Part shown: in pieces, positions 1 through 5,347 of the stretch
How positions within the stretch are numbered: position 1 is the first letter of the stretch
Layout: the number at the start of each line of letters is the position of its first letter
The notes under the pieces: model-generated
Database searches by the model: none
The model's input: the letters and a program-made list of their open reading frames with translations, nothing else
Told to the model about the DNA's origin: nothing
Position numbers and translations under genes: made by a program
Assembly: GCA_018333655.1 (NCBI GenBank)
Contig: JAGXTJ010000015.1
Span: 1 to 33,149 of the forward strand
DNA length: 33,149 bases
Source of the DNA: Bacillota bacterium
GTDB taxonomy: Bacteria; Bacillota; UBA994
Reading direction: 5' to 3'

Positions 1-578
1 CCTAGTGATACAATAGAACCGACTCCAAGATCGCAAAAAAGCGGGGAACTCGAGGATTGAATCCCCACAGCATCCGCCGCGACTTCGTTCTTCTGGGCAA
101 TCGAAAATTTTGCGGAGTTATATGCAAGGCCTAGTTTCGTCTAAATAACGGAATTTAGGCCTTTTTGCCGCAAAACTTCCGATTGGACCCTTTTAGGACC
201 GTCCCCGTGCCCCCCAGTTTGCTAAATGGGGCTAGCTCGTTCCCCGCGAACTCTGCTTGAGTAAATCCCTCTTCTTTGCGTGCTTTGCGAATTTTAGTAC
301 AGCCTGTGCGTACCACCCACCATTGTGTCATCCCGCCGCGGGATTTTGTGCGGTCTACATCGGCGGGTGCCGTGTGGTTAACTGGTATACCAGGAGGGGA
401 TAAGTATGGGTAAGGCATCTGCTGACTAGCTAGCTGCTGACAGTGGTCCTGCTCGGCTCAATTTTGGTGAGTGATACAGTCGCTCGAATTCCAACAGTGG
501 GGGACGTGAAATTTTGTTTTGTGGGATGATACAGAAAGGTCGTCCCCGTGTTCCCCACAGAAAGCAAGCGGATTACTA
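1..578. other. Region without a convincing gene; repeat-like debris
   Basis: I see no supported gene here. An 87-codon frame on the minus strand (155-418) has no recognisable domain and its sequence looks like translated repeat DNA. An inverted repeat, AAGGCCTA (126-133) with TAGGCCTT (156-163) followed by a T-run, looks like a weak terminator on the plus strand. The word TGATACA occurs near 5, 472 and 525, and GTCCCCGTG near 191 and 543, which suggests remnants of a dispersed repeat. The last part is the 3' side of the regulator gene that follows on the minus strand. Confidence 0.5.
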
Positions 579-1520
579 CTAAAGGGTGATCACTAAATTA
601 TACTTATCTTTAATAATTTGCACCATGTGCTGATAATGCGTGTGATCGCCTGAAATTTTTAAAGTATACAGGCACTTTTTGAAAGATTCTAAGTGCAGTT
701 CATTGCCAAGATGATACTGAGCAGCAGCTTCTCTAAGAAATAGGAAGTGCAACATGTCTAAATGGCCCTTCCTTAACGACAATTCTATCCCTAATTGTGC
801 GTATTGAAGCGCATCGTGATGCATATCTAAGCGATGGTAATTATAGGATATATTCGCATAAGATTTAATGGCATATAAATCTTCAATTTTGTCACTGTAT
901 AAGTTGCTTTCTACAACGGTTAAGACGTGTTTGGAGATGCGTATACTGAGCTCGCAGTTTCTGAGATCACCTAAGCATGCGGCGACCACAACTAACCCTC
1001 TGATTTCGAGGGCACTGTAACGATATCGGTCAAAATTTTCGATTTGGAAATCATGAATTGACAGCCTAAGGGCGCAAATAATGTTCGTGTAAGCGGATTG
1101 AAGATCGCCTTTGTACCTCAAGCTAATAGCTAATATGAGATGATTGATTTGTTTCAATGTCCTACAATCTACCAGCTTAAGTGCATCGGCCTCACTCAAC
1201 GATACCCTAAAAGATTCATGCAGGCCTTCTATTTCGGTGAATCTGCCAAAGGCCATTAGATGATCTAGTGACTTTAAAAAATCGAAAAGCAAGCCAGATC
1301 TTTGATAGGACGCCAGAATTCTGCCAAGATCCACTTTAAACAATGAACTAAGGTGTACCAGCGTGTCATAGCGTGGTATCGAGTGGCCGTTTTCAATTTT
1401 GCGCAGTGTATCAATATTGACTCCGGTCTCTCTCGACACAATCAACTGAGAATATCCGAGTGCCACCCTTAGTCTCTTTAATTTTTTGCCAAAATTTCTG
1501 AGGTCATATGTCTCAAGCAA
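579..1520 (-). CDS. HTH (XRE) + TPR-like regulator, RRNPP/Rgg-like
   Basis: The protein has an N-terminal XRE helix-turn-helix at about residues 8-65 (GKKLKRLRVALGYSQ, then TLRKIENG) and an all-helical C-terminal part of about 240 residues in TPR-like helix pairs. That is the layout of the RRNPP regulators (Rgg, PlcR, NprR, PrgX), which bind imported peptide pheromones. I chose the TTG at 1520 because GAGGAGG lies 9 bases upstream; this gives about 313 residues, near PlcR length, while the longer frame to 1655 runs across the ribosome site and a palindrome. It is divergent from a small secreted-peptide gene and a radical SAM/ABC operon, so it probably controls them. Peptide control is inferred from architecture. 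A TPR-bearing XRE regulator without a peptide ligand remains possible. Confidence 0.8.
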   Translation of the reverse strand: MLETYDLRNFGKKLKRLRVALGYSQLIVSRETGVNIDTLRKIENGHSIPRYDTLVHLSSLFKVDLGRILASYQRSGLLFDFLKSLDHLMAFGRFTEIEGLHESFRVSLSEADALKLVDCRTLKQINHLILAISLRYKGDLQSAYTNIICALRLSIHDFQIENFDRYRYSALEIRGLVVVAACLGDLRNCELSIRISKHVLTVVESNLYSDKIEDLYAIKSYANISYNYHRLDMHHDALQYAQLGIELSLRKGHLDMLHFLFLREAAAQYHLGNELHLESFKKCLYTLKISGDHTHYQHMVQIIKDKYNLVITL

Positions 1521-1557: not shown

Positions 1558-1635
1558 TTTGTGAGATGGAAATAGTATATCATGTCAATAAATAAAGGGA
1601 TAAGCCATGAATTATTAATTTTTGGAGGTGAAGAG

Positions 1636-1821
1636 GTGAAAAAGATATGCTTCATGAAAAGGATAGCAAAGTTGGTGTTAACCCTAATTTTGGGCTTTAT
1701 TTTTTTAACTGGTTTTGCTGATCTTACATGTGCAGCGGATGATGATTATGTAATCCCTTGTTTGGTGGCTGTTACAAGGGGTGGATCTCCTCATCATGGT
1801 GTTGTATGCCGCTGCAAGTAA
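1636..1821 (+). CDS. Small secreted Cys-containing peptide (61 aa); pheromone or RiPP precursor candidate
   Basis: GGAGG (1624-1628) precedes GTG at 1636. A longer frame starts at the ATG at 1582 but has no ribosome site. The product has a basic N-terminus (MKKICFMKRIAK), a hydrophobic stretch at about residues 12-28 and an AxA-like signal peptidase site near residue 34 (TCA/AD). The mature part would be about 28 residues, with acidic DDD, a GGSPHH turn, and Cys at 42, 58 and 60. The gene faces the RRNPP-like regulator, as pheromone genes often do. Alternatives are the substrate of the radical SAM enzyme downstream, or an unrelated small secreted peptide. I do not recognise a family. Confidence 0.65.
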   Translation: MKKICFMKRIAKLVLTLILGFIFLTGFADLTCAADDDYVIPCLVAVTRGGSPHHGVVCRCK

Positions 1822-2050: not shown

Positions 2051-2149
2051 ATGCGTATTCGTAAGGGTAGGTTTTCTTTAACCAAAAACGAGATCGATGT
2101 CTGTGATGGTTGCCCAGGCCGAATGGTATGTGGCGGCAAAAGTCGGTAA
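2051..2149 (+). CDS. Cys-rich 32-residue peptide, probable RiPP precursor
   Basis: A strong ribosome site (AAGGAGGTG) lies 5 bases before ATG 2051. The peptide has a basic and polar front half, MRIRKGRFSLTKNEID, and a tail VCDGCPGRMVCGGKSR with Cys at 18, 21 and 27 and several Gly. Its length, its place directly upstream of a radical SAM/SPASM gene, and the perfect hairpin between the two genes are typical of precursor peptides of thioether-forming maturases (sactipeptide/ranthipeptide types). The front half would be the leader and the Cys/Gly tail the core. It matches no precursor family I know, and the modification type is not deducible from sequence. It could instead be a small regulatory peptide. 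Confidence 0.65.
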   Translation: MRIRKGRFSLTKNEIDVCDGCPGRMVCGGKSR

Positions 2150-2212: not shown

Positions 2213-3583
2213 ATGAAGCTATCAAAATTTTGTGTTATTATGGAAGCCCCCTCGAATCTTTATCCTCAAGCGCACAATATGCTGCTTATCTACAACACCC
2301 TGACCAAGGCGGCTCATCTACTCTCGAGGCCGCAGTTTGAAGGGCTATGCAACTATCTGGATGGGATTGAGGCTCAAGATGCGGGCCTAAATATCTCTGA
2401 CTTAAAAGAAGATATGATTGTTGTTGACAATAATACTGATGAGGATCTTGTTTTTGAGCACCTATACAACCAAAAGAAATTCAGGGCAGATGATCTAAAA
2501 CTTATTGTAGCCCCTACTACCAATTGCAACCTCCGTTGCTTGTACTGTTTCGAAGAGAACATAGCCAAGACAAACATGGAGGCCAATGTGGAGAAACAAA
2601 TCCCCGTATTTCTAAAAGAGAATTATTTAGAGGGTATAAGACATGCTACCGTCACTTTGCATGGAGGCGAACCCTTATTGTTCCCATCCCTGACATTCAG
2701 AATTATGGATAGCTTGAACTCCTTATTTATGGATAGGCATGTGAAATATCGGTATAATATGGTAACTAACGGCACTACCTTAAGCCGGGATAACGCGAAC
2801 AAGCTCGTAAAAAGAGGCTTGGAGTTTGTGCAAATTACCATAGACGGCTGCAAAGAGTATCATGATTTGAGGCGAATTGACGTAAATGGCAGAGGGACTT
2901 TTGATAAGATAGTTAAGAACATACAAGAAACAATAGATGTAATCCCCAACATAGCGATAAGGATTAGCGTGGACAAACATAACCACAATTTAGATCAAAT
3001 GAAAAACCTGATCGACTATTTGAGTTGCACGGGCATAAAGGACAAGTTGTCAGAAATCTATTTTTCTCCCATTGTTGAAACTACAGATTGTAACAAGCAT
3101 AGTTCGCAATATGCTTTTGGCTTTGAACATGCCAGCGAAACCCTAAATATGCTATCTGATTGGCTGGCACAACAAGGCATACGCCCGCTAGATGAATCAA
3201 ATTACTCTCCATGTTGGGCACACTCCAATAATTCAATAATAATTAATGCTGACGGGGCGTTGTACAAATGCATATCTCTAATTGGGCGAAAAAATTATTC
3301 TGTGGGGGATGTCTTCAGTGGGTTAAACATGAATTACGTGCACTTTGTCAACGTGAATAGATGGAAAGCGTGCCTAAAAGAGGGGTGCCCCTATGTTCCC
3401 ATTTGTGCCGGGTCGTGTCATTTTGATTCAGTTGTTCAATTTGACAGCATAATGCGTAGATCGTGCCGCAAGACACTCATTGAGGGACATTGGATGCATA
3501 TTTTAAAAAAGGGCATTATGGAAACATATCGCACAAAGGGGATGTCTGGTGCGGGGAATATAAATTCAGCAAAAACTCTTTAG
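2213..3583 (+). CDS. Radical SAM/SPASM peptide maturase (456 aa)
   Basis: The radical SAM cluster motif CxxxCxxC is at residues 105-112 (CNLRCLYC), followed by a GGEP motif at about 151-154. The C-terminal SPASM region has Cys at 334, 353, 387, 392, 398, 402 and 418, enough for two auxiliary [4Fe-4S] clusters. The first ~95 residues include YNTLTKAAHLL, resembling the YNTLTG segment near the N-terminus of many RiPP-modifying SPASM enzymes, where the leader is bound. Members reductively cleave SAM and form thioether or C-C crosslinks, or act as anaerobic sulfatase-type maturases. The adjacent Cys peptide and ABC exporter favour RiPP crosslinking. GGAGG (2201-2205) supports the start. The exact chemistry is unknown. 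Confidence 0.88.
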   Translation: MKLSKFCVIMEAPSNLYPQAHNMLLIYNTLTKAAHLLSRPQFEGLCNYLDGIEAQDAGLNISDLKEDMIVVDNNTDEDLVFEHLYNQKKFRADDLKLIVAPTTNCNLRCLYCFEENIAKTNMEANVEKQIPVFLKENYLEGIRHATVTLHGGEPLLFPSLTFRIMDSLNSLFMDRHVKYRYNMVTNGTTLSRDNANKLVKRGLEFVQITIDGCKEYHDLRRIDVNGRGTFDKIVKNIQETIDVIPNIAIRISVDKHNHNLDQMKNLIDYLSCTGIKDKLSEIYFSPIVETTDCNKHSSQYAFGFEHASETLNMLSDWLAQQGIRPLDESNYSPCWAHSNNSIIINADGALYKCISLIGRKNYSVGDVFSGLNMNYVHFVNVNRWKACLKEGCPYVPICAGSCHFDSVVQFDSIMRRSCRKTLIEGHWMHILKKGIMETYRTKGMSGAGNINSAKTL

Positions 3584-3596
3584 GGAGGAACCGGTC

Positions 3597-4532
3597 TTGA
3601 TATTGCTCAGAAGTGTTGCGAAGGCTTTTCGAAATCGGTCTGACATAGTTCAAGCGATCGACCACATCGACCTCAATATTGAGCCCAAGCAAATCTTTTC
3701 TCTTTTAGGCCCAAATGGAGCCGGTAAGACCACGCTGATAAAATTGCTGTGCGGTCTTATCACGCCCGACTCGGGCCAGATAATGATTAACGGGGTAGAC
3801 ATAGGGAGACAACCTCATATCGCTAAGCAACTTATAGGGGTCGTACTTGAAAGCGCAAAAAATGTGTATCAGTACCTTACGGTTAGGGAGACATTAGAAT
3901 ATTTTGGGCTGCTTAATGGCCTAGCCGGGGCCAAACTAAGCAAAAGGATATGCTACCTTACGGAGATGTTCAGTCTGCAGGAAAAAATCAGCCATAAAGT
4001 AGGGACGCTTTCAAGGGGCATGCAGCAAAAATTGGCGATAATGATTGCGATGGTGAAGGACCCTGAAATCCTTATTCTGGACGAACCGACCTTAGGCCTA
4101 GACGTAATAAGCAGCCTTAAGATTAGGGATGTCATCAAGGATTTGGCACGGGGGAAAACTATCATCTTGACTACGCACGCCTTGGAACTCGCTGCGGAGC
4201 TTTCTGATAGGATAGCTATCATTAATAAGGGGCGGATTGTGCATCATTCAACTATGCCAGAACTTGTAGCGAGTTATCAGGTGAATGAGGATTCTTACCG
4301 CATTGTGTTCAGAGCAACCAGTGCGGAAATCGAGAGCCTAAACCGCAGGGATCCCAAAGTAGAGGTTACAGAGTTGCAGGATTCTCTCTATCAAGTAAAA
4401 GCTGGTCCTGAAGCGGCGAGCTTTTTAATGCGAAACTTCAATATTATTGAGCTGGAGAAAGAAAATGCGGATTTAGAGTCGATCTTTATTGATCTGCTGC
4501 ATAAAAGTACAGCCCAAAGGAGGGATGCATAG
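3597..4532 (+). CDS. ABC transporter ATP-binding protein, peptide export candidate
   Basis: This is the ATPase subunit of an ABC-2 type exporter (CcmA/DrrA-like). Walker A is GPNGAGKTT at residues 38-46, the signature LSRGMQQ at 138-144, Walker B with catalytic Glu LILDEP near 159-164, and the switch His TTH near 194. An extra C-terminal domain of about 90 residues follows, as in antibiotic and bacteriocin exporters. The start is TTG with AGGGAGG 8 bases upstream. It begins 13 bases after the radical SAM gene and its last base overlaps the GTG of the permease (TAGTG), so the two are translationally coupled. It probably exports the modified peptide and may give self-immunity; this is inferred from context. 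Confidence 0.9.
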   Translation: MILLRSVAKAFRNRSDIVQAIDHIDLNIEPKQIFSLLGPNGAGKTTLIKLLCGLITPDSGQIMINGVDIGRQPHIAKQLIGVVLESAKNVYQYLTVRETLEYFGLLNGLAGAKLSKRICYLTEMFSLQEKISHKVGTLSRGMQQKLAIMIAMVKDPEILILDEPTLGLDVISSLKIRDVIKDLARGKTIILTTHALELAAELSDRIAIINKGRIVHHSTMPELVASYQVNEDSYRIVFRATSAEIESLNRRDPKVEVTELQDSLYQVKAGPEAASFLMRNFNIIELEKENADLESIFIDLLHKSTAQRRDA

Positions 4533-5347
4533 TGTTTGTCTCGATACTGCGCGCTGAATTTAAAAAGTTAACCGCTGACTATCGAAATTACTTCCTAAAC
4601 TACATAGTTGGCCACGCTACCCTCTTTCTTTTGGCTGTAGGGCTGTTTTCTGCGTTCGCGCACACTACCTCTCAGGCGCCTTCATCAACCCTAGCGTTCT
4701 TCTTTGCTCTGTTGTTCTGGTATTACAGCGGTGATGCCATTGGTATCACCGGGCAAATTGTTTCCGAGGAACTTATGCTGGGCACTTTCGAACAGCTTTT
4801 GCTTACCAAGGGGAGTATCAAACGTATTTTCCTAGCTCGTCTGATTGTGCAATTCATCTTTCAGTCCATGTTTGCTCTAGTGTTTTTTTCAGTCCTTGTA
4901 TCCATATTTGGTATGTGGGGCGTCTTTTTTGGGCTAGGTAATAGAGTGCTAGCCCTTTGCATAGTCTTTATTCTCACTGTACTTGGGCTGTATGGGATGG
5001 GGTTTGTCGTGGCAGGCTTATCGCTGGTCTTTAAGCAAGCGGGGGCGGTATCAAGCGTGCTAACGTATACCGTTCTGTTTTTCACGGGGAGCATAGTGAA
5101 TGTCGACAGGATCCCAGCCGTAGTAAGGCCGCTTGTTTACCTAATACCTGCTACTGCGGGGAATAGTCTTTTAAGGGCTGACATCTTGCCGGCGGAAGGC
5201 CTAGCCGCTGTAGAATTAGCAACAAACCCCATGTTTTTGTATCTTGTCGTCTTAGTTGGGTTGTGGTTATTCTTCGGTAACGGCATTTTCAATTTCTGCT
5301 TAAAAAGTGCTATGAGAAAAGGTAACTTGCATAGTTACTATTTTTAG
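4532..5347 (+). CDS. ABC-2 type permease of the peptide exporter
   Basis: The 271-residue protein is very hydrophobic, with about six membrane segments (roughly 25-45, 55-75, 105-130, 138-165, 170-195 and 225-250). This is the usual shape of ABC-2 permeases paired with DrrA/CcmA-like ATPases. A ribosome site (AAAGGAGGG) lies in the end of the ATPase gene, and the GTG start overlaps the ATPase stop. It completes the presumed exporter of the peptide operon. No separate immunity gene or leader peptidase is visible in the island. If the leader is removed, the protease must be encoded elsewhere or act outside the cell. Confidence 0.88.
   Translation: MFVSILRAEFKKLTADYRNYFLNYIVGHATLFLLAVGLFSAFAHTTSQAPSSTLAFFFALLFWYYSGDAIGITGQIVSEELMLGTFEQLLLTKGSIKRIFLARLIVQFIFQSMFALVFFSVLVSIFGMWGVFFGLGNRVLALCIVFILTVLGLYGMGFVVAGLSLVFKQAGAVSSVLTYTVLFFTGSIVNVDRIPAVVRPLVYLIPATAGNSLLRADILPAEGLAAVELATNPMFLYLVVLVGLWLFFGNGIFNFCLKSAMRKGNLHSYYF

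Follow-up and report, generated by a model that had tools for sequence, protein, structure and literature searches.

A probable Sec-exported pheromone propeptide and its divergent PlcR-like regulator beside a radical-SAM RiPP operon in a Bacillota bacterium

Genes and features at the locus

The window analyzed here, which is the whole stretch of 33,149 nucleotides from a Bacillota bacterium of the UBA994 lineage (assembly GCA_018333655.1, contig JAGXTJ010000015.1), contains a small open reading frame (ORF) separated by 115 bp from a divergently oriented regulator gene and followed by a putative RiPP operon. The following features were identified.

579 to 1520, minus strand: RRNPP-type, PlcR-like regulator of 313 aa with an N-terminal HTH and a TPR superhelix; TTG start with its own ribosome-binding site
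1536 to 1557, no strand assigned: perfect palindrome CACCCCGATT-TT-AATCGGGGTG in the divergent gap, candidate operator, its core shared with other lineages
1573 to 1578, plus strand: TAGTAT, located 18 nt beyond the core of the operator, a weak candidate for the -10 element of the promoter that serves the propeptide
1636 to 1821 (stop included), plus strand: predicted pheromone propeptide of 61 aa; GTG start, Sec-like signal at about residues 1-33
1735 to 1776, plus strand: predicted pheromone-bearing segment ADDDYVIPCLVAVT (residues 34-47), which corresponds in position and pattern to the homologous (G/A)xxDIPRxF in the relatives
1777 to 1818, plus strand: window-specific Cys-bearing tail RGGSPHHGVVCRCK (residues 48-61), with no counterpart in the relatives
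2051 to 2149, plus strand: candidate RiPP precursor MRIRKGRFSLTKNEIDVCDGCPGRMVCGGKSR of 32 aa, the core CxGRxxCGGKSR being conserved in genome G107
2213 to 3583, plus strand: radical SAM/SPASM peptide maturase; best NCBIfam models TIGR04463 and TIGR04280, both below cut-offs
3597 to 4532, plus strand: ABC transporter ATPase (domain match)
4532 to 5347, plus strand: ABC-2 permease (domain match)

The GTG start at 1636 is preceded, 8 nt upstream, by a GGAGG ribosome-binding site and opens a frame of 61 codons with the translation VKKICFMKRIAKLVLTLILGFIFLTGFADLTCAADDDYVIPCLVAVTRGGSPHHGVVCRCK. According to a hydropathy rule for the n- and h-regions (not SignalP), the N-terminus is Sec-like: basic residues come first, followed by a hydrophobic core of 15 residues and then by a plausible signal-peptidase I site between TCA and A, and no lipobox is present in the signal. 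The mature part has 28-29 residues and includes Cys42, Cys58, and Cys60. An earlier note on this DNA had proposed this ORF, a Sec-type signal, and a mature tail of about 28 residues, in agreement with the present reading; the three cysteines had also been placed correctly, but the CxxxxCRCK-like spacing given for them is actually C-x15-C-x-C-K. The peptide lacks close relatives in sequence and has no match in Pfam or NCBIfam. Weak matches in four genomes (G029, G053, G090, and G092) were rejected as chance, as they lie in or over unrelated genes (translations judged by eye).

In the divergent regulator, only the HTH was matched by Pfam models above their cut-offs (HTH_19 with 38 bits and E 1.5e-9; HTH_3 with 34.3 bits). 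A TPR superhelix was found in the AlphaFold (AF2) model, which had a mean pLDDT of 86.8 based on an alignment of 19 homologues, and the protein combines the length (250-500 aa) and TPR domain of RRNPP(A) receptors with the N-terminal HTH of their DNA-binding subfamilies. The PlcR-PapR7-DNA complex was ranked first by Foldseek, followed by ComR, Rgg2, PrgX, and Rap. Alignments of the model with PlcR by VIA-align 2 gave Z 22.1 (rmsd 5.9, 270 residues) and Z 21.6 (rmsd 4.9, 278 residues), compared with Z values of 15-18 for unrelated TPR proteins. Moreover, PlcR was the only PDB sequence that the family profile of the regulator matched over its full length; this match, which was also the best one, covers positions 8-299 (E 8.5e-10) at an identity of approximately 15%. 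Asn224, which is invariant in the regulator family, aligns with PlcR Asn201. Judging by spacing, both should correspond to Asn205 of PlcRa, which has been reported to hold the peptide backbone (PMC3519770).

Downstream of the propeptide gene, the two candidate substrates of the maturase have to be distinguished. Among 398 genomes of the phylum, a close homologue of the radical-SAM gene was detected in G107 only (45% identity), where a small peptide ending in CGGRVICGGKSR, compared with CPGRMVCGGKSR for the ORF at 2051-2149 of the window, is also followed by ABC genes. No counterpart of the 61-aa peptide was found in the G107 cluster in this one comparison, which implies that the 32-aa peptide is the likelier substrate of the maturase and that the 61-aa peptide is not needed for the chemistry; in the same G107 comparison, the 61-aa peptide lacks the core conserved along with the maturase that marks radical-SAM RiPP precursors. 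Radical-SAM genes also follow the propeptide in five other loci (L060, L061, L049, L024, and L040), and in L060 and L061 the gene comes directly after the propeptide with no other, better precursor in sight. These two loci, together with the cysteines of the window peptide, could point to the 61-aa peptide as a second radical-SAM substrate and to a modified peptide as the signal. However, the precursor in the nearest radical-SAM cluster (G107) is of the 32-aa type, most regulator-propeptide pairs have no radical-SAM gene in the stretch read (flanks of often only 1.5 kb), and a Sec signal fits cytosolic modification poorly, which makes this reading highly improbable. The radical-SAM gene of G107 (L008 / L148 8590-9860) is itself interrupted, either by stops or by a frame break, although it still adjoins precursor and ABC genes, and a second radical-SAM/SPASM maturase (G000:C9:336-1607; L013; 26% identity) lies in the same genome as the window cluster.

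The cluster has a GC content of 42-45%, compared with 51-58% in the following genes that were read. Its nearest regulators in a quick tree come from a different order than the relatives of the window's organism, and the cluster was not found in genomes of the same genus or the same family. Taken together, these features suggest that acquisition by transfer is likely. At positions 155-418 (minus strand) of the window, an ORF with an HTH-like stretch (KIRKARKEEGFTQAEFA) has the appearance of a degraded regulator, and the phrase GTCCCCGTG is found at about 202 and again at about 541.

Regulator-propeptide pairs and the shared motif

A comparative survey was carried out on regulators gathered from three sources, namely the phylum of the window, named genomes, and one additional order, which gave 89 full-length proteins after near-copies had been removed. 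A divergent ORF with a ribosome-binding site and a Sec-like start, defined by the hydropathy rule that the window peptide passes, was present within 520 bp of 67 of the 89 regulators, compared with 4 of 89 for the downstream control under the same rule. The divergent arrangement that the earlier note had pointed out is thus conserved beyond chance. In other loci, the neighbors include ABC or MFS transporters or other exported proteins. For example, a 92-residue secreted protein, near-identical in two genomes, adjoins the propeptide in L029 (570-848) and L023 (754-1032, minus strand). Up to ten paralogous regulators occur within one genome (ten in G406, L084-L098; seven in G069, L017, L020, L022, L024, L026, L028, and L029), most of them with different propeptides, and these may possibly represent separate signal channels.

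An acidic residue followed by [ILVFM]P occurs directly after the signal in 39 of 89 cases and in none of the controls. Many relatives carry [D/E]D[I/V/L]P just past the signal, as in GEEDIPRIF, GENDIPRMF, AGADIPRIY, ASEDIPRIY, and APDDIPDIL, either as a single copy or in up to eight tandem copies, whereas a second branch of propeptides has DDDDYEW or DDEDIEW in place of the acidic-Pro motif. Tandem units were found in L055, L056, L058, L060, and L069, with eight copies in L056. In L056 (upstream of 6001), L058, L060, and L069, approximately 3-8 GEEDIPRIF- or PDIPNIL-like units are arranged in tandem, some of the copies being variant. Such repetition of the acidic-Pro unit is the best internal sign that this unit is what is released as the signal, rather than the tail.

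The mature part of the window peptide begins with ADDDYVIPCLVAV. In the quick tree, the window regulator groups with L099 and L100, and the neighboring branch consists of L103, L124, L105, and L132, whose propeptides have AGEDDLYSPRIVIM, AADDDLPVPRIIIM, AGDDDVNYPKIHIN, and AHEDDLPFPIFQL, respectively. The pattern [DE]DDxxxP is found in all five propeptides of the window branch and this sister clade, compared with 1 of the 61 other propeptides (Fisher 6e-7, or 7e-6 without the window), values that are optimistic because the pattern had been noticed before it was tested. The window motif is an outlier of the family: when the mature part of the window peptide was shuffled, 3.4% of the shuffles scored at least as high with the HMM, and 0.7% satisfied a looser positional pattern. 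As the MAFFT/HMM test on the mature part is weak (p 0.034), the case does not rest on it. On sequence grounds, conservation falls on the beginning of the mature peptide (residues 34-46) and not on the Cys tail specific to the window. Conservation is therefore not confined to the signal segment, which the earlier note had named as an outcome that would count against its proposal; the last 8-10 residues, whose conservation it had proposed to check, are not the conserved ones, since the tails vary.

The same comparison bears on whether the 61-aa peptide is instead a secreted Cys-bearing antimicrobial, such as a disulfide bacteriocin, that is merely controlled by the regulator. The Sec-like signal, the 28-residue Cys tail, and the nearby ABC exporter and maturase would fit such a product. 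However, dozens of homologous regulators have propeptides, with one or several copies, that share its position and motif, the Cys tail is conserved nowhere, and the 32-aa precursor is a better partner for the ABC and radical-SAM genes; an antimicrobial role alone is thus very unlikely. Cysteines past the hydrophobic core occur in 19 of 58 propeptides, so that a Cys is not unusual in this set, although the tail RGGSPHHGVVCRCK is; many relatives have Cys-free propeptides of just 38-50 residues. Also very unlikely is a functional Cys in the signal, with DYVIPCLV..., with or without the CRCK tail, being disulfide-linked, radical-SAM-modified, or processed to give a thiol-dependent signal or a dual signal-antimicrobial. 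If true, such a Cys-dependent signal would differ from the simple linear peptides used in other RRNPP systems.

No Sec propeptide adjoins the two regulators nearest to that of the window, L099 (51% identity) and L100, which retain the operator described below; in L099, an ABC operon comes directly after it. Regulator homologues that occur without the peptide had been considered decisive against the pairing in the earlier note, and these two are of that kind, whereas 67 of 89 homologues have a propeptide. Because several subfamilies commonly contain RRNPPA receptors that have no propeptide beside them (PMC9765709), L099 and L100 weaken the pairing and do not refute it. The same two loci and the frequency of orphan receptors are consistent with a regulator that eavesdrops or senses some other ligand, the secreted peptide being a small non-signaling protein. 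The clade-specific [DE]DDxxxP match between the window and the sister clade and the conserved divergent synteny argue against this, and such an arrangement appears very unlikely.

Operator, transcript, and proposed circuit

Exact copies of the 16-bp core of the palindrome, CCCGATTNNAATCGGG, are present in L020, L100, and L113, equally far from the regulator, and variants were found in many more loci, mostly 12-22 nt from the regulator start. Scores of at least 16 were obtained upstream of 30 of the 89 regulators, downstream of 1 of 89, and in 0 of 890 shuffles. The consensus was derived partly from the loci that were scored, and the shuffle and downstream controls therefore outweigh the raw count. 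A genome-wide scan yielded no second exact copy, and near-matches were outnumbered by the counts of the reversed control. The PlcR box, TATGNANNNNTNCATA, has no match in the window at up to one mismatch.

In most relatives, TA...T hexamers lie 15-23 nt beyond the operator core. A sigma-70 scan called no promoter for the propeptide, TAGTAT included. No intrinsic terminator was found on the plus strand before 2051 and no RNA fold of note between 1821 and 2060, and there is accordingly no sign of a break in transcription ahead of the RiPP genes; a single transcript covering the propeptide and the RiPP operon would be the simplest reading.

The earlier note had left a choice between a pheromone and an antimicrobial product. 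The synteny, shared motif, operator, and PlcR-like fold favor the former, and the candidate substrate of the radical-SAM maturase is the 32-aa ORF, which speaks against the latter. The 61-aa peptide is thus very probably the Sec-exported pheromone propeptide of an RRNPP-type pair, with the divergent regulator as its PlcR-like intracellular receptor. In the proposed circuit, signal peptidase would remove approximately residues 1-33, and extracellular proteases would then cut the beginning of the mature part down, leaving a short peptide within ADDDYVIPCLVAV. Re-import by an oligopeptide permease is possible, given that nine SBP_bac_5 oligopeptide-binding proteins are encoded in the genome. The peptide would then bind the TPR groove of the regulator, which would activate, and not repress, the propeptide promoter from the palindrome at 1536-1557, and transcription would continue into the genes for the 32-aa precursor, maturase, and ABC exporter, resulting in density-dependent RiPP production.

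Such a circuit would tie an uncharacterized radical-SAM RiPP operon to a predicted inducing peptide, which could serve as a direct switch for a silent cluster. The relatives, which come from Clostridia and other Bacillota, form a large PlcR-like set in which a single genome can have as many as ten paralogues. The set has a shared operator, a readable pheromone code (xD[IVL]PRxF and its variants), and propeptides with tandem units, and a comparison of these natural variants could reveal the basis of receptor-peptide specificity.

Comparison with known peptide-sensing systems

The window pair (61 aa, 115-bp gap) lies within the size, gap, and domain limits of RRNPP_detector, which accepts propeptides of 10-100 aa and gaps of -60 to 400 bp (PMC10075063). 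Exact strings of the family motif led to no paper naming this pheromone code within the library searched, and the code may be undescribed for the subfamily; the 21 novel unnamed clusters of RRNPP_detector may include it.

Streptococcal Rgg/SHP systems, which control RaS-RiPP operons (tryglysin and streptide) by density (PMC8092268, PMC13361665), resemble the window in having a peptide-responsive HTH-TPR regulator beside a radical-SAM RiPP operon. However, SHPs are short and hydrophobic, lack a Sec signal, and are exported by PptAB, whereas the window has a Sec-like signal and a PlcR-like receptor. Tandem propeptides are also known for Phr, in the Rap-Phr systems of phi3T and phi105 (PMC11343458), and resemble those of the window relatives L056, L058, L060, and L069, although Rap has no HTH and a different pheromone code and the window propeptide is single-copy.

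The PlcR-PapR and PlcRa-PapRa systems of the Bacillus cereus group have receptors of similar length with the HTH and TPR fold also seen in the model of the window regulator, and a propeptide that is Sec-exported, as predicted for that of the window. Their heptapeptides ADLPFEF and CSIPYEY and the xDIPRxF of the window family follow a common x-[DS]-[IL]-P-x-x-[FY] pattern. PapRa7 CSIPYEY bears a Cys and is internal in its propeptide (PMC3519770), an exception to the earlier note's premise that RRNPP pheromones are usually Cys-free. On the other hand, the window pair differs from the PlcR systems in receptor sequence, operator, and its divergent gene order, and its propeptide has a long Cys-bearing tail that those of the PlcR systems lack. 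Moreover, the pheromone of PapR occupies the extreme C-terminus, whereas the motif of the window family opens the mature region, often in tandem.
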